Part shown: positions 1-38,554 of the stretch, in pieces | How the letters are laid out: the number at the start of each line of letters is the position of its first letter | How positions within the stretch are numbered: position 1 is the first letter of the stretch | Virus record (IMG/VR): IMGVR_UViG_3300032286_000345 | Span: 1 to 44,179 of that record | Source of the DNA: a virus | DNA: 44,179 bases | Direction: 5' to 3' (one strand) | Notes under the pieces: generated by a model | What the model saw: the letters and a program-made list of their open reading frames with translations, nothing else | Database searches by the model: none | What the model was told of the DNA's origin: nothing | Position numbers and translations under genes: made by a program

Positions 1-123
1 CGCTATGCAGAGCGATGTGCTAACATCGTGCCTGTGCGTGAGTTACAAAGTTCAACAGAGTTAATAGTTCACGAGAAACCAGAAGAGAGAGACCGCATAA
101 GGAAAGCATTAAACAAAGATGCC
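1..123. repeat. Direct terminal repeat, left copy
   Basis: Bases 1-123 are identical to 44057-44179, the last 123 bases of the window. A coding sequence reads through the repeat in the same frame at both ends, which fits a circular or circularly permuted molecule whose ends overlap by 123 bp. An assembler k-mer overlap is the simplest cause. A short physical terminal repeat is the alternative. Confidence 0.95.
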
Positions 124-135
124 GACCCCAGTTGA
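1..135 (+). CDS. 3' end of the hypothetical protein gene that crosses the join
   Basis: Frame 1 is open from base 1 and ends at TGA 133-135. It continues the gene starting at 43721: the right end of the window stops after codon GCC, and this side resumes with GAC CCC AGT TGA. Joined, the protein has 156 residues. The C-terminal part seen here is charged (EKPEERDRIRKALNKD) and has no family signature I recognise. Confidence 0.85.
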   Translation, partial: RYAERCANIVPVRELQSSTELIVHEKPEERDRIRKALNKDADPS

Positions 136-187
136 GGTTATAGCAGTCAGCATATGGTTATACATAGTTATAAGAAACCTAAAGTGA
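119..187 (+). CDS. Possible 22-residue membrane micropeptide
   Basis: A short reading frame starts at ATG 119 inside the 3' end of the join-crossing gene and stops at TGA 185-187. The peptide begins MPTPVEVIAVSIWLYIVIRN, so one hydrophobic stretch of about 14 residues could span or lie in a membrane. There is no clear Shine-Dalgarno sequence. A second peptide of this type lies at 1022-1081. It may be a chance frame, and no function can be assigned. Confidence 0.3.
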   Translation: MPTPVEVIAVSIWLYIVIRNLK

Positions 188-190
188 TTC

Positions 191-207
191 TTACAAAAAA
201 AGTCACC
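191..207 (+). repeat. Regulatory unit element A, copy 1
   Basis: TTACAAAAAAAGTCACC occurs exactly here and again at 39030-39046. In both places it lies just after a gene, 92-94 bp before a second shared motif (ACCCTATCTGGAACAT) and a TATAAT box. The DNA between has diverged except that each copy holds a hairpin. This is a duplicated non-coding unit, probably regulatory. Confidence 0.7.
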
Positions 208-241
208 GCTTATAGTGAGGTTTTAATAACTAAATAACCGA

Positions 242-272
242 GTGGCACATCGCAAGCGTTGCGGTGTGTCAC
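242..272 (+). terminator. Hairpin in early regulatory unit 1
   Basis: Arms GTGGCACATCGCAA and TTGCGGTGTGTCAC pair over 14 positions, including G-T wobbles, around a 3-base GCG loop. No T-run follows, only TAAAACTTT, so it may be a weak terminator for the upstream gene or a structured regulatory element. It lies 12 bp before the promoter motif at 285. The second regulatory unit has a related hairpin at 39085-39108. Confidence 0.5.
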
Positions 273-284
273 TAAAACTTTCCC

Positions 285-310
285 ACCCTATCTGGAACAT
301 CGTATATAAT
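285..310 (+). promoter_or_regulatory. Early promoter, copy 1
   Basis: ACCCTATCTGGAACAT (285-300) is followed after 4 bases by TATAAT (305-310). The same 16-mer, 4-base gap and TATAAT recur at 39122-39147. The TATAAT matches a sigma70-type -10 box. No TTGACA lies at the usual distance, so the shared 16-mer probably takes the place of the -35 element, perhaps as an activator site. Start codon 319 is only 8 bases downstream of the -10 box, so the transcript would be leaderless or nearly so. Confidence 0.65.
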
Positions 311-318
311 AATAGTGT

Positions 319-810
319 ATGAAAAACATACCTACCCAATCGGTTGAACCAATCAAACTCATCAGCACCGCAACCGCTGATATATTGAAGAGTGTGATTA
401 CAACAGAAACCAAACAGAAATCAAAACGCACAGGCGAAATTAAAGTTATTGAAACTATCGACAACGCTGACGCTATTGCGTTTCTCTCAAGCAACGCAAC
501 TGAATCGATGACCATCATTAAAAATGTTTTCGCTTCAGTCTTCGATGCGATGAAAGAAGTGAGTGACAAGAAAGAGAAACAACGCCAAGCGTTTATCAAA
601 GGTGAAGTGAAAGCAATCAAGACAGGTTCACTCAAGAAGAAAAAGAAAGTGAACATCGAGAAAATATTAAATGGTGTGAAGAAAGAAATGTTGTGGATTC
701 GCAATCGTGCTAAGGAATGTGAGGATTTAATGCGTGACCCTTATGCACAACACCTGTTCAAACAATATGCGAAAGTGCCCGAGCCGAAAAAGAAAGTGAA
801 AACAAAGTGA
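319..810 (+). CDS. Hypothetical basic early protein
   Basis: The 163-residue protein is lysine-rich, with a run of lysines near residue 105 (LKKKKKVNIEK) and a basic C-terminus (EPKKKVKTK). This suggests nucleic-acid binding, but I recognise no family. It is the first gene after early promoter copy 1, with ATG 319 and no Shine-Dalgarno sequence. Its stop overlaps the GTG start of the next gene (GTGA), so the two are probably translationally coupled. Confidence 0.75.
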   Translation: MKNIPTQSVEPIKLISTATADILKSVITTETKQKSKRTGEIKVIETIDNADAIAFLSSNATESMTIIKNVFASVFDAMKEVSDKKEKQRQAFIKGEVKAIKTGSLKKKKKVNIEKILNGVKKEMLWIRNRAKECEDLMRDPYAQHLFKQYAKVPEPKKKVKTK

Positions 811-1019
811 GTGAAATGCCTCTGCTGGTTTTGCAAATGCAACGAGCAAACCTCCAGCGTCGTTTAGGTATTCAGTATCAGCGTATCGTTATGGCAAAGC
901 AGGATGAGTCAGCGTGGTTACGCACGAGCGGTGAGCCGTTAGAAATAATGACTCACGAAATATTCAAGACGCTCAAAGCGTTGAACGAAATAAATGAACG
1001 CATACGAAACGCAAAGTAG
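807..1019 (+). CDS. Small hypothetical early protein
   Basis: The 70-residue protein starts at GTG 807, overlapping the previous stop codon (GTGA). An in-frame ATG at 816 is an alternative start. The sequence is largely helical and charged (QMQRANLQRRLGIQYQRIV, then ALNEINERIRNAK), which suggests a small coiled-coil protein. It ends with TAG at 1017-1019. Function unknown. Confidence 0.6.
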   Translation: MSEMPLLVLQMQRANLQRRLGIQYQRIVMAKQDESAWLRTSGEPLEIMTHEIFKTLKALNEINERIRNAK

Positions 1020-1021
1020 AA

Positions 1022-1081
1022 ATGGAAGTACTCACACTATTGCTGGTCATTACTTGCCTGTTGATTATAAACGGAAAATAA
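1022..1081 (+). CDS. Possible 19-residue membrane micropeptide
   Basis: ATG 1022 lies two bases after the previous stop and opens a frame encoding MEVLTLLLVITCLLIINGK, ending at TAA 1079-1081. It is almost wholly hydrophobic with a polar tail, like a single transmembrane helix. The tight spacing to the upstream gene suggests coupled translation. A chance frame cannot be excluded. Confidence 0.4.
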   Translation: MEVLTLLLVITCLLIINGK

Positions 1082-1118
1082 ATCCGTTACACACTCAACG
1101 GCATTGCAGAAAAGAGCA

Positions 1119-1160
1119 GAGCCTCTCGCCCTACGGGGCGGGGGGACTCTCTCTTTGTTT
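1119..1160 (+). terminator. GC-rich hairpin, probable terminator
   Basis: The arm CCTCTCGCCC pairs with GGGCGGGGGG around a TACG loop, extended by GAG/CTC with one bulged A. A pyrimidine-rich tail follows (TCTCTTTGTTTCTG). It stands out in an AT-rich genome and ends the short early operon 319-1081, separating it from the origin-like region and the gene at 1447. Confidence 0.6.
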
Positions 1161-1308
1161 CTGTTCAGAATCCCTAACGCATTTTAACACACACTTTTTA
1201 ATTGTAAAAGGCACTAAAGTCTGTAGTAGCAGGGGTTATTAGGGGGGAAATGCATAGTCGTGTCAAATGTCAATGGCAGATTCTATGGTATTTTGTATAA
1301 AAACGAGC

Positions 1309-1410
1309 AGGAAATTAGTTTCCTAGGGGGGTGAAATAGATTTCCTATGGGGGGTGCTATGAATTTCCTACAGATAGAATAGTAATATAAAACAGAGATA
1401 TTAATAATAG
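1309..1410 (+). repeat. Origin-like iteron block, non-coding copy
   Basis: TTTCCTA recurs at 1319, 1341 and 1364, spaced 22 and 23 bp. The first two are followed by G runs (1326-1331 and 1349-1354). An inverted copy, AGGAAA, lies at 1309-1314. After the third repeat come TTCCTACAGATA (1365-1376), 10 bases, ATAAAACAGA (1387-1396) and an AT-rich tract. The same order and spacing occur inside the initiator gene at 36931-37034. Iterons beside AT-rich DNA are typical of phage origins, so this may be a second origin, a site that titrates the initiator, or its operator. The rest of the gene-free stretch 1161-1308 holds another pair of G runs (1232-1235, 1242-1247). Confidence 0.65.
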
Positions 1411-1412
1411 GT

Positions 1413-1441
1413 TTGACAGGGGATTGTTTTTTTATTCTAAA
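1413..1441 (+). promoter_or_regulatory. Possible sigma70-type promoter before 1447
   Basis: TTGACA at 1413-1418 is a perfect -35 hexamer. At 17 bp the -10 position holds TCTAAA (1436-1441), a 4/6 match to TATAAT. Transcription would begin at or very near ATG 1447, giving a leaderless mRNA. The box directly abuts the iteron block, so an iteron-binding protein could regulate it. Confidence 0.35.
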
Positions 1442-1446
1442 AGGGT

Positions 1447-1956
1447 ATGGACATCAAAGAATCAGAGTTAATCAAAGAAAAAGGCTGGAAAAAGGCTGAT
1501 ATGAAGAAAATTCGAGAGCAGGTACAAGAATTTGAAGGTATTTCCTTGTGGTATAGGGTTGCCGATAAAAAGCCAAAGCAGTTACAGGCGATTATGTGGA
1601 CTCCTACAGGTGTTATGTACTTGGAAGAGTTTATGAAGGTCAAAGATATCATTGAAAAGAACCAGCCAGAATCAATTGCCAAAGAAATCATTGGAGATTC
1701 TGCTATGACTAAAGGAGAATTTAATAAAATAGTAAACGGAACACGCTGGATTGGTAAGATTTCAAGAAACAGTTATAAGAATAATAAACTTGTTTTAGTA
1801 GAACACGAAACTGGGTTTAACATTATAGCAAACTGCAAAGATAATATGCTCTATGCTAAAAATCGATGGGTGATTGTTGACACGCTAAACAATAACCACT
1901 CCATTCGTAAACCTGCATTCAAAATCTATGAACAAGCCCAAAAACAAAAAATCTAA
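1447..1956 (+). CDS. Hypothetical protein downstream of the origin-like block
   Basis: The 169-residue protein has a charged helical N-terminus (MDIKESELIKEKGWKKADMKKIREQ) that could be a small DNA-binding or coiled-coil region. No HTH or enzyme motif is certain. AAGGG ends one base before ATG 1447, too close for a standard Shine-Dalgarno sequence. Its place beside the iterons makes a role in replication or autoregulation plausible, but that is inference from position only. The 3' end overlaps the next small gene by 29 bases. Confidence 0.7.
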   Translation: MDIKESELIKEKGWKKADMKKIREQVQEFEGISLWYRVADKKPKQLQAIMWTPTGVMYLEEFMKVKDIIEKNQPESIAKEIIGDSAMTKGEFNKIVNGTRWIGKISRNSYKNNKLVLVEHETGFNIIANCKDNMLYAKNRWVIVDTLNNNHSIRKPAFKIYEQAQKQKI

Positions 1957-2080
1957 ATTTAAACAACCAGATGCTTTGCACGAAGCACTTGATATTCCTA
2001 AATACGAAAGACTAGAGCATAAAGACGGCACCGCTGAATGCAAGAAATGTAAGAAAACCGAAAAAGAGTGCAAATGTTAG
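1928..2080 (+). CDS. Small lysine- and cysteine-rich protein
   Basis: ATG 1928 opens a 50-residue frame overlapping the end of the previous gene by 29 bases and ending at TAG 2078-2080. The C-terminus, AECKKCKKTEKECKC, has four cysteines in CxxC-like spacing and could bind zinc. The N-terminus is very basic (MNKPKNKKSKFKQ). Its place in a tightly tiled row of small frames supports a real gene. Function unknown. Confidence 0.55.
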   Translation: MNKPKNKKSKFKQPDALHEALDIPKYERLEHKDGTAECKKCKKTEKECKC

Positions 2081-2172
2081 GGTACGAAGAGTTTGAAGAA
2101 GAAGAAATTGACCCCGATGACTACGCTTTAGGGGAAACAGTCTACTGGAAGAAAAAACGAATGCGATGCTAA
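2074..2172 (+). CDS. Small acidic protein
   Basis: ATG 2074 overlaps the stop of the preceding gene (ATGTTAG), giving a 32-residue frame that ends at TAA 2170-2172. The product is acidic in its first half (YEEFEEEEIDPDDY) and basic at the end (WKKKRMRC). The stop-start overlap suggests coupled translation. Not recognised. Confidence 0.5.
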   Translation: MLGYEEFEEEEIDPDDYALGETVYWKKKRMRC

Positions 2173-2181
2173 CGCATCGCA
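2162..2181 (+). promoter_or_regulatory. Perfect hairpin between small genes
   Basis: GCGATGC and GCATCGC pair around TAAC, with one more T-A pair outside. The loop carries the stop codon of the gene at 2074, and the 3' arm ends 7 bases before ATG 2189. No T-run follows, so a role in RNA processing or translation of the next gene is likelier than termination. Confidence 0.4.
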
Positions 2182-2188
2182 CAATACA

Positions 2189-2506
2189 ATGAACGAAGAT
2201 ATACCATCATACAGAGTTGACCCATTTTCACTTGGATTGGATGGAGCAAGATTTGATTTTGGGTTACCATTTGAGGACAGATTAAGACTTATGTATGGAC
2301 TAGACCTAGCAAGCAAAACTGCTGGAGCGTCCTACACGCTTCCGTATGGTGTTGGCAATATAAACGCTCAATACACCACTCCAAATGACGCTAGGATGTC
2401 ACCAATGACAAATGTGCAATACATCAGTCCAGCAGGACTTCAAGCGGTCTACAATGACCAAGGAGGCAACAAATATTATGGAATCCAATACAACAAGCGA
2501 TTCTGA
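2189..2506 (+). CDS. Hypothetical protein, first gene of the late cluster
   Basis: A 105-residue protein rich in Gly, Tyr and Asn, with no charged coiled coil or membrane segment. The C-terminal half (YTLPYGVGNINAQYTTP to KYYGIQYNKRF) looks beta-rich and resembles small structural proteins. It starts right after the hairpin at 2162-2181 and overlaps the HNH gene by 29 bases. Not recognised. Confidence 0.6.
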   Translation: MNEDIPSYRVDPFSLGLDGARFDFGLPFEDRLRLMYGLDLASKTAGASYTLPYGVGNINAQYTTPNDARMSPMTNVQYISPAGLQAVYNDQGGNKYYGIQYNKRF

Positions 2507-2879
2507 TGAAGTCTGGAAGAAGGTGCCAATCCAGCAATTTCACGAGTTATATGAAATTAGCAACTTGGGCAGACTGCGGTCTTTACCTAAGACAACGGCA
2601 GATGGAAGAAACCTTAAATCGAAAATTATTAAGCCTACGATTATTAACAGCGGATATTTGCAGTTCAAGTTGCATAACAACAAATTTCGATTTAACATTA
2701 ATGCTCACAAACTTGTGGCTATCACATTTGGTTTAATATTTTGGAATGAGCATTCTAACTCAAACCTGCAAATTAACCACATTGATGGTAATAAACATAA
2801 CAATTGTGTGAGTAACCTTGAGTCCTGTACCCCAAGCGAAAATCTACAACACGCATACAGAACAGGATTAAGAAAATAA
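2478..2879 (+). CDS. HNH homing-type endonuclease (NUMOD4 + HNH)
   Basis: From ATG 2478 the protein has 133 residues. The N-terminal third matches the NUMOD4 pattern (WKKVPIQQFHELYEISNLGR), which binds DNA in homing enzymes. The C-terminal half carries the HNH core (INHIDGNKHNNCVSNLE, then CTPSENLQHA), with the His-Asn-His layout expected for metal-dependent nicking. It overlaps the end of the preceding gene by 29 bases, as expected for an inserted selfish gene. It sits two genes before the terminase, so it could be a free-standing homing gene or could aid packaging. Confidence 0.85.
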   Translation: MESNTTSDSDEVWKKVPIQQFHELYEISNLGRLRSLPKTTADGRNLKSKIIKPTIINSGYLQFKLHNNKFRFNINAHKLVAITFGLIFWNEHSNSNLQINHIDGNKHNNCVSNLESCTPSENLQHAYRTGLRK

Positions 2880-2883
2880 CTTT

Positions 2884-3954
2884 ATGGCAGAAGAAACCCC
2901 AGATTCAGATATTTCTACACAAATTCTCCGTGAAAACGGATGGGATTTTAAAGACGGCAAAGTGGTACCACCACCAGATATCATTAAAATTCAAAACCAA
3001 AGAACATCTCCTTTATCAATAACTAAAAGTTATTTACAAAGTGACTACGGAGTTCCAGCAATTGGAGTAGCAGGTGGTGCAATGGTTTTAGGTGGTGCAT
3101 ATGCAAACTATAATAGAATTTTGGCAGATGAAGTTAAAAATTACCAAGCAGGTGTAAGATTAGCAAAACAAGCCGTAAAAGGTGCAAAGGCTTCTACTAC
3201 AGATGCACCTTTATTAAAAAGAGTTATTGATGCAAAAGGAAATCCTGTTGATGGATATACACCTATTGTAAGAAAAGGTGGAGAAAGTGCAACTCCAGTT
3301 GGTAGAGGTGGAAAATATGCAGTAGGACAATCAAGCAGAGTTTCAACAATTACTTCACCTTCAATTGGTGTTTTAAAGCCAGATGCCACTAAAGCAATTA
3401 AAGCACAAACTTGGAAGAGAATGTTTAGTGGACTTACTGGTTCTGGAACTACTACATCTCCATTGGCAAATCCAGCAGTAACAATGAATGTTTTAAAAAA
3501 CGGAAAAGTAGTACCTGTAACATTATCTGCTTCTGATGTTATAGCAGGTAATTTTAGAGGAACAGAAGCACCATTAGAGGCTACACGATATTCAAAAGCA
3601 CTTAAAGGAAGTGGAAATCTTCTTAAAAAAGGTAGTGGCTACCTTGCTAGAGGAGTTGCATCTCCATATTTTCAAATTCCATTAACCGCATTAAATGCTT
3701 ATTCTGCTTATAATAATGGTGATATAGCATATGATGAAGAAATGGCAAAAACTGGAAATGTAAATCAAGCAAGATGGGAAGCAACAAAAGAATATTTGCC
3801 TTTAGCATTACAAGCAGGAACTTTTCTTGCTACTAGAAATCCATATGTTAGACTTGGTGCTACAATACCTTCAGTTATTGATATGTCAGCACAATACATA
3901 AATGAATCAGCAGAAAAAGGACATATTCAAAATCAAAATGCCGAAGGAATGTAA
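2884..3954 (+). CDS. Hypothetical protein upstream of terminase
   Basis: A 356-residue protein with a Gly/Ala-rich hydrophobic segment near residues 57-72 (GVPAIGVAGGAMVLGGAY), a basic low-complexity middle, and a C-terminal region (from SPYFQIPLTALNAYSAY) that resembles the C-termini of phage internal or membrane-interacting proteins. No catalytic motif is visible. Its stop overlaps the terminase start (TAATG). A virion or ejection role is possible, but there is no direct evidence. Confidence 0.65.
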   Translation: MAEETPDSDISTQILRENGWDFKDGKVVPPPDIIKIQNQRTSPLSITKSYLQSDYGVPAIGVAGGAMVLGGAYANYNRILADEVKNYQAGVRLAKQAVKGAKASTTDAPLLKRVIDAKGNPVDGYTPIVRKGGESATPVGRGGKYAVGQSSRVSTITSPSIGVLKPDATKAIKAQTWKRMFSGLTGSGTTTSPLANPAVTMNVLKNGKVVPVTLSASDVIAGNFRGTEAPLEATRYSKALKGSGNLLKKGSGYLARGVASPYFQIPLTALNAYSAYNNGDIAYDEEMAKTGNVNQARWEATKEYLPLALQAGTFLATRNPYVRLGATIPSVIDMSAQYINESAEKGHIQNQNAEGM

Positions 3955-5567
3955 TGTCAGAAAATGTTTCTAGTTTTAAGCCAACAAAACATCCAGTCAT
4001 CAAGATGCCAGACATCAAGATGCTTGTTGAAAAGTTAGGTGCTGAAAAAACTGCTGAAATATTAGAAATACGAGAAGATAAAATTCTAGCGGAACAGTTA
4101 GACCCATATCGTCACGGCTTTGAACCAGACCATTGGAAAGATGCAGATGCAATAATTAAAGATAAACAAGAAATACTTGTGCTTGGTGGTAATCGTGCTG
4201 GTAAAACTGAATGGATGGCTAAAAGAGTTATTCAGACACTTGTTAATAAGGAAAAAGCAATGGTTTGGTGTCTTCACACAACACAAAAATCATCAATCCA
4301 AATGCAACAGAATGTAGTCTGGAAGTATATGCCTCCAGAATTAAAAAATTGCAAAAAGACCAAAGTTACTAACATTGCTTATAGCCAAAAGAACGGATTT
4401 TCAGAAGAATCGTTTATTTTGCCTAATGGTTCTCAATGTGTGTTTATGAATTACGCACAGAAGCGTGATGTTATTGAAGGAGGCGAGTGCGACTTGGTTT
4501 GGTGCGATGAGTTAGTTCCTATGGACTGGGTTGAAACGCTTCGTTATCGTCTTGTTACTCGCAGAGGAAAACTTGCTATTACATTTACACCTATTGCTGG
4601 ATACTCACAAGTTGTTAAAGAGTTTGTTGCTGGTTGTAAATTTACTAAAACACTTCCTGCACCAATTTTAGATAGCAACATAGTTCATATTCAAGGATGT
4701 CCAAAAGGAGAAATGCCTTATACGGCTAATAGTCATAGAGGAAATGCAGGAGTTGTATGGTTTCACTCACAACTAAATCCATATAATCCTTTTGATGAAC
4801 TAGTTAAGACTTTACAGGGAAAAAATCTATATGAAAAGAAAATTAGAGCGTATGGATGGGCTGATAACACAGTAGGCAATCAGTTCCCAAGATTTAGCGA
4901 CCACAACATTATAGCGGATAATTTTATTCCAAAAGAGGGTACAAATTATATGGTTTGCGACCCTGCTGGTGCAAGAAATTGGTTTATGCTTTGGATGCGT
5001 GTAGATAGCCAAGGAAATATGTATATCTATAGGGAGTTTCCAGATATTACATTTGGAGAATGGGCTTTACCAAGCGAAAAACCAGATGGTAAAGAAGGAA
5101 TGGCTCAACGCAATGGTGCTGGTATGGGAATTGATGAAATCAAACAAACTATTAAAACTTTAGAGGGCAACGAGGAGATTATTGAGCGATATATCGACCC
5201 TCGTGCTGGTGCAACGCAAGCCATTGGTCGTGATGGTGGAACATCCATCATAGAACTCCTTGATTCTGGAGGTGACCCTATGTACTTTGCACCATCGGCT
5301 GGTGTAGCAATAGAGCAAGGTGTGGCTATGATTAACGACCTACTGTCATATGATGTAAGCCAACCTCTATCTCCACTCAACCAGCCAAAACTTTTTGTTT
5401 CTGATAAATGTCAAAATTTAATATATTCATTAAAAGAATGGACAGGTGCAGATGGAGACAAAGGTGCAAGCAAAGACCCAATTGATTGTTTACGCTACTT
5501 AGTAGTAATGTCGCCTATCTATGTTGACAATAAACGGAATTTTAATAACCAAACATTTACATACTGA
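3954..5567 (+). CDS. terL: Terminase large subunit
   Basis: The 537-residue ATPase-nuclease packages DNA through the portal. Walker A is GGNRAGKT (78-85) and Walker B is LVWCDE (181-186). The C-terminal RNase H-like nuclease shows its acidic residues in VCDPAGARNWF (D336), YIDPRAG (D415) and KDPIDCLRYL (D508/D511). Length fits the family. ATG 3954 overlaps the previous stop (TAATG), and the TGA overlaps the portal start (TGATG), so translation is likely coupled. No cognate small subunit is adjacent. The HTH protein at 38569 is a candidate. Confidence 0.93.
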   Translation: MSENVSSFKPTKHPVIKMPDIKMLVEKLGAEKTAEILEIREDKILAEQLDPYRHGFEPDHWKDADAIIKDKQEILVLGGNRAGKTEWMAKRVIQTLVNKEKAMVWCLHTTQKSSIQMQQNVVWKYMPPELKNCKKTKVTNIAYSQKNGFSEESFILPNGSQCVFMNYAQKRDVIEGGECDLVWCDELVPMDWVETLRYRLVTRRGKLAITFTPIAGYSQVVKEFVAGCKFTKTLPAPILDSNIVHIQGCPKGEMPYTANSHRGNAGVVWFHSQLNPYNPFDELVKTLQGKNLYEKKIRAYGWADNTVGNQFPRFSDHNIIADNFIPKEGTNYMVCDPAGARNWFMLWMRVDSQGNMYIYREFPDITFGEWALPSEKPDGKEGMAQRNGAGMGIDEIKQTIKTLEGNEEIIERYIDPRAGATQAIGRDGGTSIIELLDSGGDPMYFAPSAGVAIEQGVAMINDLLSYDVSQPLSPLNQPKLFVSDKCQNLIYSLKEWTGADGDKGASKDPIDCLRYLVVMSPIYVDNKRNFNNQTFTY

Positions 5568-7750
5568 TGAACTCGACAAATTATAATGATGAAACTGCAG
5601 ACCAACTGCTATATTCAGAAGATGGACCAAATATTAATGCTTTAAACGCAGAATTAAGCCGTTCTTACCTTTTTGGAGCAAATGTAACAGAATTAAACGC
5701 AAATGATGATTTGCGATATTGTAGATGGAATGGTCAAACTTCTGACGGAAAAAAATTTAGCAAAAACCGAGATGAAGATGACCCAGCATTACCATTTGAA
5801 GGTGCATCAGATGTAAGAGTTAGACTTATTGACAGAGTTATTAACGAACAAGTAGCACTTTGGATGAACGCATTAAAGGCTTCTAAACTTGGTGTAAGCG
5901 GTAGAACTGTAGAAGATTCTGCTAATGCTACATCAATGAGTACATTGTTAGAATATGTTGCTTCTGGAAGATTAAGACAAGAAATGCGAAGAGAAGCAGA
6001 ATTGTGGGCTCAATACACACAACAATATGGTTGGTCTGTTATGCATATTGGTTGGGAACAGGAAATGGGAACTACAGAACAAAAATTTAGTATTACTGAT
6101 TTAATTAATATGGTTGCTGAAGCACAAGCACAGAATCCAGAATCAAATTTAGCACAATTAACAGATTATGTAATGAACGAAGATACTGAAGATTTAGCAG
6201 TATCACTTATTATAGCAAATATGCCATCAATGGTAGAAAAAGAAGCAAGAAGAATTGTTAAAGACTTAAGAGAGCAAGGTTTTACATCTATTTATAATGA
6301 ATCTTTAATTAAGAATTTACCTGTTGTTACTGCATTAAAACCATATGATGAAATTACTTTTCCACCAGAAACAATTGATTTACAAAAAGCACGATTAATT
6401 TTTAGACGAGTATATATGACAGAGTTAGAAGTTCGTGCTTTAGAAAATACTGAAGGTTGGGACAAAGAAGCAATTGAAGAAGCAGTATTAACTAAAGGAC
6501 AATTCTTTTGGTATCGTGACCCTAATATTGTTCCTATTAATCGTTTAAACCAAGACTATCGTTTAAGAACAAATAATTTAATTGAAGTAGTATATGCGTA
6601 TTACAAGCAATTAAACGAACAAGGCAATCCTTGCGTATATCAAACTATTTTTAGTCCTAATTCTCGCAGTTCAACATATCTTAAGCACGAAAAACTTGGA
6701 TACGCACACGGAAAATATCCATTTGTTGTTTTACGCAGAGAACATATTCGCAAAGCAATTTACGAAAGCCGTGGTATTACCGACATTCTTTCTACAGACC
6801 AATCTGAGTTAAAAGCCCAACAAGATTCATTGCGTGATAGAACTGCATTAGAAACAGTTCCACCTATTATGGTTAAGCGTAGAGGAATTGGAGGTATTGG
6901 AAGAATTGGACCTGCAATGCAGATTCCTGTTACATCACCAGATGACTACAAATTTATGGAGCCACCAAAAGGTACTCCAACCATTGCAGAGTTTGTAATT
7001 AGCCAAGTTAATTTAAGTACTGCTACTTACTTTGGTCTCAATCACGCTGACACTCCACCACCATTAGCACAAATGCTTCAACAAGTGTCTGTTGATAATT
7101 GGTTAACTGGTTGGTCAGAAGTATATACTCAAATGCTTCAATTAAGTATTCAATATTTAGATAGTACTGAATTAGAGCGTATTTGTGCAGTTCCTATTCC
7201 AAAGAGCGTAAGTGATATTACCAATATGTATGATTTTGAAGTTAAATTCGATATTAGAAACTTATATAGCGATTTAGTAATGGAAAAACTTCAAGCAATT
7301 CAACAATTTGTTATTCCTTTAGATGCTGGTGGTGTTATTGACAGAAACAAACTTGTACAAAAAGCAGTTGAAGCAATTGCTCCAGATAGTGCTAAAGACC
7401 TTATTATCAATAATCAGTCTGCATCTCAAAAACTTTATAAAGATGTACAAACAGATATTGGTATGATGATGCTTGGAAATGAGGCTAATTATGTTGAAAA
7501 CGACCCAACTGCTTCAACAAAGATGCAGTATTTACAACAAATTATGCAAAAGAATCCAAAGGCTCAACAGGCTTCACAAACTGACCAAATGTTCCAAATG
7601 TTGTTACAAAACTATATGAAGAACCTTCAAATGTCTATTATGCAGGAACAAAACAAGCAAATTGGTCGTATTGGTGTAACACCTGTTGCTGACAAGATGG
7701 CTCAACAAGGACCACAACAACCACAAGGAGGTCAAAATGCGGGATACTGA
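5567..7750 (+). CDS. Portal protein
   Basis: A 727-residue protein directly after the terminase, the usual place and size for a podovirus portal forming the ring through which DNA passes. It has helical N-terminal and stem regions, a central patch RRGIGGIGRIGPAMQIP, and a Gln/Met-rich C-terminal tail ending QQGPQQPQGGQNAGY, as in portals with a barrel or crown. Identification rests on gene order, size and overall character. Its end overlaps the next gene by 14 bases. Confidence 0.85.
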   Translation: MNSTNYNDETADQLLYSEDGPNINALNAELSRSYLFGANVTELNANDDLRYCRWNGQTSDGKKFSKNRDEDDPALPFEGASDVRVRLIDRVINEQVALWMNALKASKLGVSGRTVEDSANATSMSTLLEYVASGRLRQEMRREAELWAQYTQQYGWSVMHIGWEQEMGTTEQKFSITDLINMVAEAQAQNPESNLAQLTDYVMNEDTEDLAVSLIIANMPSMVEKEARRIVKDLREQGFTSIYNESLIKNLPVVTALKPYDEITFPPETIDLQKARLIFRRVYMTELEVRALENTEGWDKEAIEEAVLTKGQFFWYRDPNIVPINRLNQDYRLRTNNLIEVVYAYYKQLNEQGNPCVYQTIFSPNSRSSTYLKHEKLGYAHGKYPFVVLRREHIRKAIYESRGITDILSTDQSELKAQQDSLRDRTALETVPPIMVKRRGIGGIGRIGPAMQIPVTSPDDYKFMEPPKGTPTIAEFVISQVNLSTATYFGLNHADTPPPLAQMLQQVSVDNWLTGWSEVYTQMLQLSIQYLDSTELERICAVPIPKSVSDITNMYDFEVKFDIRNLYSDLVMEKLQAIQQFVIPLDAGGVIDRNKLVQKAVEAIAPDSAKDLIINNQSASQKLYKDVQTDIGMMMLGNEANYVENDPTASTKMQYLQQIMQKNPKAQQASQTDQMFQMLLQNYMKNLQMSIMQEQNKQIGRIGVTPVADKMAQQGPQQPQGGQNAGY

Positions 7751-7973
7751 TTATAGATTAGAAGTTTTTGCTTTTACACAACAAAACGATTTATGGGAAC
7801 ATATTCAGTATTTGATTGATATCAATATTGAGGCTGAAACTAATCTTGCAATTAGTACGGAACTTTCTGGAGAACAAAGGGTTCACGCTTGTGGTAGAGC
7901 AGAGTCTTTAAGGCAGTTTAAGAGTTTGTTAAACGAAGAGCGTAAGAAGGCTTTGGATAATATCGCAAAATAA
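7737..7973 (+). CDS. Small hypothetical head-region protein
   Basis: I chose ATG 7737 because it follows a good Shine-Dalgarno sequence (GGAGGTCAAA), one of very few in this genome. The 78-residue product (from MRDTDYRLEVFAFTQ) is helical and charged, with a C-terminal coiled-coil-like segment. It overlaps the portal end by 14 bases and precedes the scaffold, so a role in head assembly is plausible. Not recognised. Confidence 0.7.
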   Translation: MRDTDYRLEVFAFTQQNDLWEHIQYLIDINIEAETNLAISTELSGEQRVHACGRAESLRQFKSLLNEERKKALDNIAK

Positions 7974-8066
7974 TTTGACAATAGTTCAACAACTATAAAG
8001 TTGACTTTAACAGTTTCTGAGTACTGCAAAAACTCTGACCTTAACAGGCACTTTAGACCTCATCTA

Positions 8067-34967: not shown

Positions 34968-34975
34968 TGAGAAAA

Positions 34976-35047
34976 TGACCCTGCTAGGAATCGAACCTAG
35001 ATTCTCTGCTTAGAAGGCAGATGTTCTATCCGTTGAACTACAGGGTC
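34976..35047 (-). tRNA. tRNA-Arg (anticodon UCU)
   Basis: A complete 72-base cloverleaf on the minus strand: acceptor GACCCTG/CAGGGTC, D stem GTTC/GAAC, anticodon stem TCTGC/GCAGA with loop CTTCTAA (anticodon TCT), a 4-base variable loop, T arm CTAGG-TTCGATT-CCTAG and discriminator A. CCA is not encoded. It reads AGA codons, which dominate Arg in the late genes. It lies in a gap between the ERF gene and the transglycosylase. Confidence 0.95.
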
Positions 35048-35053
35048 AATGTA

Positions 35054-35815
35054 TTAGAAGGGTACTTCGTCTTGTGGTTCTTCTTCTGGTGTAGCGTTGG
35101 ACTTCAAGGCATATAGGGCTTGTGCAGACTTCTTGAGCAGAAGGTCTTTAGCACCTACTTTGCCTGTCTTTTCCCACGGCTTTGGTTCCCACTTGTTAGC
35201 CCAATACTCAAGGTCAGAATCTGGCAAGTCCTTCAATGCAGTTCCCTTGTTCTTACCAAACGGCACGGCTAACTCGAAGTTAGGCTCACCAGCCGATGCT
35301 GGTGCTGGTGCGGTGGACTTTGGGGCAGATGCTTTAGGAGTGTATGCTGGTGCGTGAGTGTATGCTGGTGCGGATGCAGGAGCACGAGTGATGCGGTCAA
35401 TTTCGCAGTCATCATCGTCTGTAGCCACCCCTGCTACGCTGGCGAGTGCATAGCGTCTTAAGTAGGTCAGTAATGCACCTGCCTGTTGTCCTGTAGTCTT
35501 GGTGTCAACAGGGATTGAGATGATAGATTCAATGCTTGTGCCGTTAGTGTGAGCAATAATGGTTTTGATACCAATACCGCCAACTCTGTCATTACCCCAG
35601 ATAGTTTCACCAGCGGAGCAAGGCATTTGAATTACCGCCAATCCGTTTTTAGCAAAGATTGGTTTAAGGGCACTCAAATGAGCCGACAATGTGGCATAAT
35701 TATTTTTATGAAAAGGATTTTTAGCGTCAGCCAAAATGTCCTTGGTTTCGCTCTGCATCTTTACGATAGCAGAATATAACTCACTCAAGTTTTGTGGAGA
35801 TGTAGCGTCTTCCAT
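35054..35815 (-). CDS. erf: ERF-family single-strand annealing protein
   Basis: The 253-residue protein has an N-terminal ERF core (about 5-140): NPFHKNNYATLSAHLSALKP (residues 33-52) and TGQQAGALLTYLRRYALASV, typical of Erf/Sak-type recombinases that anneal complementary strands. A Pro/Ala-rich linker (about 142-178) joins a second module (FGKNKGTALKDLPDSDLEYW, 186-205) like the small domain found at nuclease C-termini. It ends EEEPQDEVPF, an acidic tip resembling that of SSB. It probably works with the exonuclease at 37333 in recombination-linked replication. Confidence 0.85.
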   Translation of the reverse strand: MEDATSPQNLSELYSAIVKMQSETKDILADAKNPFHKNNYATLSAHLSALKPIFAKNGLAVIQMPCSAGETIWGNDRVGGIGIKTIIAHTNGTSIESIISIPVDTKTTGQQAGALLTYLRRYALASVAGVATDDDDCEIDRITRAPASAPAYTHAPAYTPKASAPKSTAPAPASAGEPNFELAVPFGKNKGTALKDLPDSDLEYWANKWEPKPWEKTGKVGAKDLLLKKSAQALYALKSNATPEEEPQDEVPF

Positions 35816-36012: not shown

Positions 36013-36702
36013 TTATTCTTTAGTGGCTCCGTGTATTTCAAAGTAATCTTTTAGTCTGCGAACAATCGCAGAACCAGTCTCTGTGTTATTGAAACGCTCT
36101 TCAAGTTTATTTCCATTATAATTTGTTGTGATAATTGTAGGACGCTTATTGGAAGTTCGTTCATCAATGATTGCAAACAAATCAGTTTCCATTCTTGGTG
36201 TCAAGCGTTCCTTGCCCAAGTCATCAAGACCAAGCACGGCACAATTTATCATAGCATCTAAAACATTGCCGTGATTATTATTTGCAAATCCATTTTCAAT
36301 CTTCTGTTCAAGTCTACGCATAGAAATAAATTCAGAGTTGCGTGGATAATAGTGATGCCACGCTTTGTTGAACATCATCCAAGCCGTGCGTGTCTTGCCT
36401 GTGCCTGTTACTCCGTGAAGCAACATAGACTTGTGTGGCTCGTAGTTATTCCACGCAGTCTGCATTTGTGGTGCAAGTCGTGACACAACTGTCTCCAGAA
36501 AAATAATTGGTGTTGTTGGATGTGTCATCTGGAATCTCCATCCGTGATTCTCAAACACCTCAAGATATTTGTATGGATATTCGTGATGCTCTTTAGTTTT
36601 AAAACAGTCTAGGCACACAGAGAGAAGTGGTTTAAACTTCTCACTACGATTATCCCAAACAGGTACTGCGGTTTGCTTACAATGTATACATTTAGAAGCC
36701 AT
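36013..36702 (-). CDS. DnaC-like AAA+ helicase loader with zinc finger
   Basis: The 229-residue protein has an N-terminal C4 zinc finger (CIHC at 5-8, CLDC at 30-33) and an AAA+ core: Walker A GVTGTGKT (97-104), Walker B VLGLDDLG (156-163), sensor-1 ITTN (191-194) and Arg-finger AIVRRL (212-217). It is shaped like DnaC/DnaI loaders, which place the replicative helicase on single-stranded DNA at the origin. The gene overlaps the initiator gene by 11 bases, matching the lambda O-P arrangement. Confidence 0.85.
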   Translation of the reverse strand: MASKCIHCKQTAVPVWDNRSEKFKPLLSVCLDCFKTKEHHEYPYKYLEVFENHGWRFQMTHPTTPIIFLETVVSRLAPQMQTAWNNYEPHKSMLLHGVTGTGKTRTAWMMFNKAWHHYYPRNSEFISMRRLEQKIENGFANNNHGNVLDAMINCAVLGLDDLGKERLTPRMETDLFAIIDERTSNKRPTIITTNYNGNKLEERFNNTETGSAIVRRLKDYFEIHGATKE

Positions 36703-37336
36703 TGGTGTGGTCGGTATTGGTTAATTTAGTTTTGTTGTCTTTAATATCAAAAAGACCCTGCCAGCCGAAGGCAATGCTTTTCTGTATTGATGCAATACAT
36801 TTTCCTTCATTGCCCCATCCAGCCAGCATCTTCAACTGCTCCTCCTGTGTGAACAAGCCCATTGGCTTCTTGATTTGCTTCCTGTATGCCATCCACTTGT
36901 CCCAAGCCTCCTTGAATGCATCACCATAAGGCAGTATTATATTATTATCTTCTGTTTTATTAACTGTTATATCTGTAGGAAGTTTATTTCCCCCCCTCCG
37001 TGAAGTAGATTTCCTACCCCTAGGAAGTTCTTTTCCCTTACCTTGGTAATCTATTACACCCACCAAGGCTTGCTTCTCAATCGTCCGTAGGATGCGTTTG
37101 CCATCCACCTCGATGCGTCTTATCAGATTGTAGTCGATAAGGGTTTTGAGGACATTCTTGACCTGTCTGTCGGACAACTGCAAGGTACGAGCAAGGTAGC
37201 CATTAGATGCGTAGCAACCCTCTTCGTTGTCGAGGGCTGATACGATACCATAGACCACCTTCTCAGTTATGGACAGAGTCTCCAATTGGAGTACCTCGGA
37301 AGGTATCCAAACACCTGTAAACTTGGCTTCGCTCAT
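36692..37336 (-). CDS. Replication initiator (lambda O / DnaD-like)
   Basis: The 214-residue protein starts with a winged-helix domain (about 1-90; LSITEKVVYGIVSALDNEE, DRQVKNVLKTLIDYNLIRRI). A basic linker follows (PRGRKSTSRRGGNKLPT), whose DNA carries the iteron block. The C-terminus (WDKWMAYRKQIKKPMGLF, then KSIAFGWQGLFD) is the conserved tail of phage DnaD/RepO proteins that contacts the helicase loader. It would bind the iterons inside its own gene, as lambda O does. It overlaps the loader by 11 bases and the exonuclease gene by ATGA. Confidence 0.8.
   Translation of the reverse strand: MSEAKFTGVWIPSEVLQLETLSITEKVVYGIVSALDNEEGCYASNGYLARTLQLSDRQVKNVLKTLIDYNLIRRIEVDGKRILRTIEKQALVGVIDYQGKGKELPRGRKSTSRRGGNKLPTDITVNKTEDNNIILPYGDAFKEAWDKWMAYRKQIKKPMGLFTQEEQLKMLAGWGNEGKCIASIQKSIAFGWQGLFDIKDNKTKLTNTDHTNGF
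36931..37034 (-). repeat. Origin-like iteron block inside the initiator gene
   Basis: Read on the minus strand, TTCCTAGGGG is followed after 22 bp by TTCACGGAGGGGGGG and after 23 bp more by TTCCTACAGATA (plus 36970-36981). Then come 9 bases, ATAAAACAGA (plus 36951-36960) and AT-rich DNA. An inverted copy (TTTCCTA against TAGGAA around CCCC) lies at 37010-37026. The order and 22/23-bp spacing match the non-coding block at 1309-1410. An origin inside the initiator gene is known in lambdoid phages, so this is the likely replication origin. Confidence 0.7.
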
Positions 37337-38121
37337 CGTTTGTAACTGCTTAGGTGTAATGCTGGTAAATTACCAGACTGATACGATGGAAACTTATTGA
37401 GTTTAGTACAAGTTTGATACTGAAGCAACTTGTTCTCAACAATGTCAGACCAGACCTTGAGTTCTTCTTCGGATACCTTGTAAAATCCACAAGCACTTGG
37501 CTCTGTAGTTTCTACTGCAATAAATCCGCATCCAAACTTTTGCTTATAATGTTTTTCAACCAGCATCTTATAAAATGCCTGTTGCACCCAATATAATCGG
37601 TCTTGTACTTCATAGCGGAACTTATCAACACTTGCGTCTTGGCAGGTTTTGACATCCCAAATCATATTGTTCTTCAAATCAATGATATCAATCTTACCTT
37701 TGCACTCTGTTCCAAACAAATCTGTGAGTATAATCATCTCACGATTTACTTTGCTTGCTAACAGGTAGTGCCACTCTTCGTGACCTGTTACAGATATAAC
37801 TGCACGAGAAACAATTTCGCTACTATCAGCCTTCAGTATTAACTTATCAGAGTTAGCATCTTCAAAATCTTTAGCGATTTGCTTTCCCTCCTTTGTTCTG
37901 CGGTCACATTCTGGCATATAAGCAACTGACTTCAGATACAATTCTGGCTCAAGCAGAGCCATATGAATTGCAGTTCCAATTCTCATTGCTTCGGTTTGCT
38001 CTACATCAACTTGTTTTAAGAAGTGATATGGTGAGCGTACAAATGCCTTGAAGCGTGAAGCATTCAAAGCAGGATGAGAGCGATATTCGCTCTCCGTCAT
38101 TTTACAGGCAGTCGTTGTCAT
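37333..38121 (-). CDS. PD-(D/E)XK exonuclease (RecE / DUF3799-like)
   Basis: The 262-residue protein fits phage exonucleases of the PD-(D/E)XK fold: an early GTAIHMALLEP (His53), the core CKGKIDIIDLKNNMIWDVKT with D145 and D156-x-K158, and QQAFYKML (181-187) with the conserved Gln and Tyr. It would resect double-strand ends to give 3' tails for the ERF protein. The stop overlaps the initiator start (ATGA). The start overlaps the RusA gene by 20 bases. Confidence 0.82.
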   Translation of the reverse strand: MTTTACKMTESEYRSHPALNASRFKAFVRSPYHFLKQVDVEQTEAMRIGTAIHMALLEPELYLKSVAYMPECDRRTKEGKQIAKDFEDANSDKLILKADSSEIVSRAVISVTGHEEWHYLLASKVNREMIILTDLFGTECKGKIDIIDLKNNMIWDVKTCQDASVDKFRYEVQDRLYWVQQAFYKMLVEKHYKQKFGCGFIAVETTEPSACGFYKVSEEELKVWSDIVENKLLQYQTCTKLNKFPSYQSGNLPALHLSSYKR

Positions 38122-38554
38122 TTTGTGTTATTTTTATTTTAATGCTGGGATGAATTTCCCAACACTTCTCGACATTAAGTTGCCATATGAGGCTATCGTC
38201 AACCCAAAATTTTTGGTTTGTTAACTCATCTAGGATAACCTTGACCACATTGTCGCAATCTGGTCTAGTGTCTTTTACAATTGTTTTACATTTGTTAAAT
38301 TTTGGTAAAAGATACTTTGGGGGACTATAATTTAGCCTAATATTTATAATACAAGCCTCAGAAATAGGCTCAAAAGGCTTATATTTTGCTATTTTCAGCC
38401 CAAACTCCTTTTGCCAAGCACTAACCTTGTTATTTTTCATCTTTCCAACAAACATCTGACCTGTTTTGGTCTTTAAGACCCTTAAATTGGCTTGGTGGGT
38501 CGAACTTGGTGGCTCCATATCAATGCTGAAGTCTTGATTTTTGTCGTTTTTCAT
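38102..38554 (-). CDS. rusA: RusA-like Holliday junction resolvase
   Basis: The 150-residue protein has the RusA layout: N-terminal strand with FSIDMEPPSSTHQ, a basic middle, RPDCDNVVKVILDEL (97-111; D99, D101) and FWVDDSLI (D119/D120), matching the three acidic residues that cut four-way junctions. It resolves recombination or replication intermediates before packaging. It is the first gene of the minus operon. Its start is 14 bp from a divergent gene, so its promoter must overlap that gene or be very short. Confidence 0.85.
   Translation of the reverse strand: MKNDKNQDFSIDMEPPSSTHQANLRVLKTKTGQMFVGKMKNNKVSAWQKEFGLKIAKYKPFEPISEACIINIRLNYSPPKYLLPKFNKCKTIVKDTRPDCDNVVKVILDELTNQKFWVDDSLIWQLNVEKCWEIHPSIKIKITQNDNDCL

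Follow-up and report, generated by a model that had tools for sequence, protein, structure and literature searches.

Two matching iteron blocks, one inside an O-like initiator gene and one non-coding, as likely initiator sites of a circular phage genome

Why should a phage carry, in non-coding DNA, a second version of the origin-like repeats that lie inside its replication initiator gene? The question is raised by positions 1309-1410 of the window, i.e. the whole stretch of 44,179 nucleotides analysed here (IMG/VR record IMGVR_UViG_3300032286_000345), where an earlier note had claimed an origin-like block matching one within the initiator gene. The ends of the window share an exact overlap of 123 bp, and the genome is therefore that of a circular phage of 44,056 bp, in which the two blocks lie 8.4 kb apart, close to the distance of about 8.5 kb around the circle given before. 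Alignment of the two blocks, proposed in the same note, gave a match of 75% over 88 bp (E 3.2e-10, 53.6 bits) between block 1 (1309-1410, plus strand) and block 2 (36931-37037, minus strand). When the gene block was compared with the genome by BLAST, block 1 was its best non-self match and the runner-up reached 27 bits. Apart from the end overlap, an internal match of this strength is found for no other 115-bp stretch of the genome. The claimed positions, architecture and spacing of 22 and then 23 bp were confirmed in both blocks, the iterons starting at 1309, 1331 and 1354 on the plus strand and at 37037, 37015 and 36992 on the minus strand. The blocks consist of the following features:

1309-1327, plus strand: block 1 iteron 1, AGGAAATTAGTTTCCTAGG, a dyad scoring 13.8 bits with the iteron weight matrix
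1331-1349, plus strand: block 1 iteron 2, GTGAAATAGATTTCCTATG, 22 bp after iteron 1, 23.9 bits
1354-1372, plus strand: block 1 iteron 3, GTGCTATGAATTTCCTACA, 23 bp after iteron 2 and running into CAGATA, 20.9 bits
1373-1412, plus strand: AT-rich tract of block 1, a candidate unwinding element from its AT content and its likeness to the block 2 tract
36931-37037, minus strand: block 2, the putative in-gene origin, with iterons at 37037-37019, 37015-36997 and 36992-36974 and AT-rich DNA to about 36931

The repeated unit is better described as a dyad of the approximate form GGAAAT-NN-ATTTCC-TA than as TTTCCTA alone. In both blocks, three such palindromic iterons with G-runs between the units lead into CA(G/T)ATA and then AT-rich DNA, with 75-77% AT in the first 60 bp beyond the iterons, and both TTCCTACAGATA (1365, plus; 36981, minus) and TAAAACAGA (1388, plus; 36959, minus) occur exactly twice in the window. 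A weight matrix built without the window found iteron clusters at these two places only, in every two-block genome scanned. Four of the six true iterons score 20-24 bits, the best stray match reaching 13.2; the two weakest, iteron 1 of block 1 (13.8 bits) and the middle unit of block 2 (12.7 bits), do not rise clear of the strays and were therefore called by position and spacing. The three matching repeats described earlier are thus present with the right spacing, but the middle iteron of block 2 is degenerate (ACTTCACGG); similarly, the identical sequence claimed for the third repeat is found in the window as an exact match (ATAAAACAGA), but the relatives do not conserve this match. The best-kept part among the relatives is GGGGGTGCTATGGATTTCCTACAKATA in iteron 3 of block 1. 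The AT-rich tracts of the two blocks are alike beyond composition, with a nine-genome sum of 185 against a shuffle mean of 134 (0 of 500 shuffles), although just three of the nine show a strong likeness when taken one by one. Positions 1309-1410 are covered by no open reading frame of at least 50 aa, in agreement with the view of this copy as non-coding. An RNA role for the blocks is not favoured (z -1.2 and -2.0; Rfam returned tRNA only), and GC skew tracks gene direction and marks neither block.

Block 2 lies within a minus-strand cluster of replication and recombination genes:

36692-37336, minus strand: O-like replication initiator, 214 aa (HTH_36 and PHROG matches, AlphaFold2 model)
36013-36702, minus strand: DnaC-like helicase loader (phrog_50, E 2e-26)
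35054-35815, minus strand: Erf-like single-strand annealing protein (phrog_2324, E 3e-31; PF04404)
37333-38121, minus strand: exonuclease VIII-like nuclease (phrog_412, E 8e-47)
38102-38554, minus strand: RusA-like Holliday junction resolvase (phrog_140, E 9e-25; PF05866)

The initiator matches PF13730 HTH_36 (E 4e-8) and the replication initiation families phrog_270 (E 6e-16) and phrog_678 (E 2e-13), which are O-like. Its AlphaFold2 model has an N-terminal winged helix joined to a C-terminal helical domain by a disordered linker, the part encoded by block 2; this predicted layout would be the one expected of an O protein. The DNA of block 2 is constrained beyond the protein that it encodes. 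Where the amino acid is kept, 89% of the codons are identical in block 2, against 65% elsewhere in the gene, and four-fold sites are conserved at 85% against 57%, which makes this the top window of the initiator gene. The adjoining AT-rich tract is 75% AT in a genome of 63%, a value as high being found in 4% of the genome's 60-mers. Iterons in the middle of the gene, an adjoining AT-rich tract, nucleotide-level constraint and a neighbouring helicase loader are all features of a lambda-type origin, and the in-gene origin claimed earlier, with its iterons inside the initiator gene, is on these sequence features well supported. The tract after the last in-gene iteron (window 36931-36980; CATATA ... 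AAAGAAGATAA ... AAAGAG) is also present in the initiator gene of Oceanospirillum phage GJ44 (L197) and is shared far outside the clade of the window, even together with entirely different iterons; perhaps it serves unwinding or loading in this initiator family in general. The Erf-like, exonuclease VIII-like and RusA-like genes form one minus-strand cluster with the initiator, a recombination set like that of SPP1, and the same cluster holds a single tRNA-Arg (TCT) gene (window 34975-35048), of a kind which several clade relatives also have.

Block 1 lies at the border of early and late genes, in the non-coding gap between the early gene ending at 1019 and the gene starting at 1447. From about 2.9 kb onwards, the plus strand encodes the late genes, which include the large terminase (3954-5567), the scaffold and the major head protein. 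The elements of the gap and the gene that follows it are:

1122-1145, plus strand: hairpin resembling an intrinsic terminator, upstream of block 1 where the early operon ends; similar sequence in relatives
1232-1266, no strand assigned: conserved element GGGGTTATTAGGGGGG-N13-TGTCAA, single-copy in nearly all genomes that carry it
1413-1418, plus strand: TTGACA, candidate -35 of the gene 1447 promoter, invariant in 20 distinct copies
1447-1956, plus strand: gene downstream of block 1 (gene 1447), conserved and syntenic in all relatives covering the place

The protein of gene 1447 is modelled (pLDDT 86) with two domains, a helix-turn-helix-like N-terminus and an OB-like barrel at the C-terminus. 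A fold search with the model gave weak OB-type matches, none of them significant, the protein matched no family, terminase families included, and a protein search confirmed no relative, its homologues having come via synteny. Gene 1447 is separated by a few small genes from the large terminase downstream and may encode a small terminase or late regulator. The TTGACA stands about 30 bp before its start codon and block 1 about 40 bp upstream of the TTGACA; no conserved -10 accompanies it, and a promoter scan made no call there. Since the TTGACA also persists in most relatives that lack block 1, the promoter would be older than the block or independent of it. The same intergenic gap carries the element GGGGTTATTAGGGGGG-N13-TGTCAA, almost invariant in sequence throughout the clade and in distant relatives, including those without block 1; it occurs in either orientation and its opposite strand begins with TTGACA. 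To its left, window 1155-1231 (minus strand) is conserved as well, with a possible hairpin (ACAGACT ... AGTGTGTGT) and, on the minus strand, a terminator-like stem, and might encode a small antisense transcript. Four relatives' contigs (G019, G021, G023 and G030) end 46-105 bp upstream of block 1, which may reflect an assembly effect of the G-runs or else a physical end or break. Farther downstream, an HNH homing-endonuclease-like gene (window 2412-2879) overlaps the preceding frame; the gene occurs in relatives too (e.g., L001, L003, L004, L010), and an HNH fragment was the sole match when annotated phages were searched at the DNA level with window 1-8000.

Whether the non-coding block matters to the phage can be judged from its relatives. 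These were first collected by searching for the initiator protein alone, with the sequence of the blocks unused, and BLAST with block 1 then located the non-coding block in six of the contigs so found (L001, L003, L004, L007, L008 and L010). More relatives came from pattern scans of 2.9 million viral contigs, in which the exact end of the gene block (CTTCCTACAGATATAACAG) had no match but looser patterns did, from a scan of 41 records, and from L090/G042; among bacterial genomes, the initiator profile found no close relative. Wherever a clade contig covers both places (11 of 11 cases), it contains both blocks, in inverted orientation and separated by 7.7-9.1 kb, so that the conservation of both copies, their spacing and orientation, for which the earlier note had wished to search related phages, is borne out throughout the clade. 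These contigs include the window and amount to about nine lineages, G006 being a near copy of G005. Block 1 always stands directly upstream of the same gene, the homologue of gene 1447, and it is kept in the roughly nine lineages amid variable flanking intergenic DNA. From no clade contig that covers its place is the second block missing; in the remaining clade records the expected position of the partner lies beyond the end of the contig.

The two blocks also change together. Variants are shared between the two blocks of a genome more than across genomes, with permutation p values of 0.0026 for the 41-bp core and 0.0017 for the whole block (10 genomes), in a statistic in which relatedness between genomes remains. 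For example, in G042/L090, TTCCTACATATA has turned into TTCCCCCATATA and TTCACCCATATA in its two blocks and TAC after the last iteron has become CCC-type in both, and G007 and G042 carry GTA in place of GAA in both blocks. Parallel changes at two separate loci are hard to obtain otherwise than through a common reader or conversion between the blocks. Because of these changes shared within genomes, one protein probably reads both blocks, and the O-like initiator would be the protein bound at each of them. Since iterons and initiator change together along the clade, the recognition code of the initiator could be worked out from such comparisons.

In relatives whose O protein has at most 54% identity, the in-gene origin is kept and the second block is absent. 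Relatives with one block only, which the earlier note had set against a two-site model, thus do exist outside the clade, but not inside it. No second copy was found in eight distant contigs read whole (G008, G044-G048, G050 and G051), two of which have circular end overlaps. Among annotated phages with related initiators, none was seen in 27.5 of 55.7 kb of Cruim01, in 32 of 63 kb of Skulduggery or in 20 of 33.8 kb of GJ44, and apparent second copies in L109, L117, L118, L120, L140 and L143 proved on inspection to be low-complexity sequence or chance. Most distant relatives have 1-10 tRNA genes in the syntenic position, upstream of their gene 1447 homologue; such arrays were observed at L022 10338-10730, L165 24-766, L168 9006-9722 and L177 2588-3770. 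The in-gene iterons of the distant relatives have palindromes whose arms change in step (GGCAAAAAATTGCC, TGCGGAAAACCGCA, TGCAATAAATTGCA and others) under a constant architecture, and this joint change would be the signature expected of the recognition dyads of an initiator. As the distant relatives have the in-gene copy only, the second block was either gained in the clade of the window or lost in the others.

What, then, does the non-coding block do? From the sequence comparisons it is very likely that two origin-type initiator sites are present, and the most likely reading, which we consider probable if far from certain, is that block 2 is a lambda-type origin and block 1 a second site of the same kind, with a role like that of SPP1 oriR. 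A likeness due to chance, or a recent duplication with no function, has a practically negligible probability: G-runs and AT-rich low-complexity DNA can inflate similarity, but a match of E 3e-10 that is the best within the genome and is kept in about nine lineages amid variable flanks is not explained in this way, and conservation already refutes it. An operator, at which bound O would switch gene 1447 on or off and so tie late expression to replication with no origin activity at all, deserves more attention while still being unlikely. It would account for the constant place of block 1 directly upstream of one gene, with an invariant TTGACA about 40 bp downstream of the block, for the DNA-binding appearance of a product encoded ahead of the large terminase, and for a TTGACA with no good -10, as in activator-dependent promoters. 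However, distant relatives keep the gene and mostly the TTGACA without the block, so that the promoter does not need it, and three exactly spaced iterons with an origin-like AT-rich tract are not expected of an operator. The likeness of the tracts counts for the origin reading for this very reason, as a plain operator would not need AT-rich DNA. It is rather unlikely, but conceivable, that block 1 is dual, an origin or fork barrier which also allows the initiator to switch on the gene upstream of the terminase, and which the clade gained at the place of the tRNA genes.

A titration or pairing (handcuffing) site, limiting the firing of the in-gene origin as plasmid iteron arrays do, would fit the presence of a further array serving the same initiator, at a constant distance and with changes shared between the arrays; such a sink needs no AT-rich tract, fixed three-unit spacing, fixed position or inverted orientation, and this role appears improbable. 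It is more doubtful still that block 1 is part of a packaging start (pac) region with only a secondary likeness to an origin. Gene 1447, just before the large terminase, could encode the small subunit, and four contigs end 46-105 bp upstream of the block, but these ends vary between records, the gene has no terminase family match, and a common reader is needed to explain why block 1 matches the in-gene origin and changes along with it. The earlier note had proposed two origins or an initiator-controlled switch in front of gene 1447; of this, the two-site part is upheld by two matching origin-like blocks that are conserved and co-varying and by the precedent of SPP1, and the choice between second origin and switch is graded as above.

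Under the preferred reading, with block 2 as origin and block 1 as a second, oriR-type site, dimers of the O-like initiator would bind the three palindromic iterons of each block, and the simplest reading is that the same nucleoprotein complex would form at both. By analogy with lambda and SPP1, the adjoining AT-rich tract would open and the DnaC-like loader would place the host helicase. Replication would begin as circles from the in-gene origin, block 1 may act as a second start point or as an initiator-filled barrier at which forks break or stall, and the Erf-like, exonuclease and RusA-like functions would convert replication to concatemers for packaging. The AT-rich side of both blocks points away from the 8-kb early segment, so that forks leaving there would run with neighbouring transcription. 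The locus bears on the question of how a phage that has a single initiator passes from circle replication to the concatemers that it packages, and a natural comparison is provided by close relatives with two sites and distant relatives with one. If the dual role were true, a single protein and a single DNA element would link replication to late expression and packaging. A second, apparently separate group in which an in-gene and a non-coding site are conserved as a pair would show the layout to be a recurrent one.

Several known systems combine one initiator with more than one array of repeats. The satellite phage P4 has two separate sites, ori1 and crr, with shared repeats for a single initiator, which is a primase-helicase and not O-like. 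Additional iteron arrays for one initiator are also found in plasmid control loci such as inc regions or alpha, beta and gamma of R6K, which serve copy control in plasmids. In lambda and lambdoid phages, iterons in the middle of the O gene encode the interdomain linker and are followed by an AT-rich tract and then by the helicase-loader gene (PMC7466680), as is the case here; lambda, however, has four iterons and one origin, whereas our phage has three iterons, a second non-coding copy and a DnaC-like loader.

Among the well-studied phages found in our literature search, SPP1 of Bacillus subtilis is the only one with an in-gene and a non-coding site. Its two sites, oriL within gene 38 and the non-coding oriR, are 12-13 kb apart, and both contain an AT-rich unwinding element and repeats bound by the protein G38P. 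Replication begins at oriL, and the stalling of forks at oriR occupied by G38P is thought to lead to recombination-dependent concatemer synthesis (PMC3485210, PMC6316719). Our phage likewise has one site in the initiator gene and one intergenic site near the late genes, each with direct repeats and an AT-rich tract, as well as its own annealing protein, exonuclease and Holliday junction resolvase, in a genome of about 44 kb. The sites, however, are 8.4 kb apart instead of 12-13 kb and are inverted, the second standing just before the gene upstream of the large terminase, and a DnaC-like loader takes the place of SPP1's own DnaB-type helicase and loader G39P. The likeness is one of layout and kinds of genes, and what is described here is best seen as the known layout of SPP1 in a new case, a phage group with an O/DnaC-type replication module.
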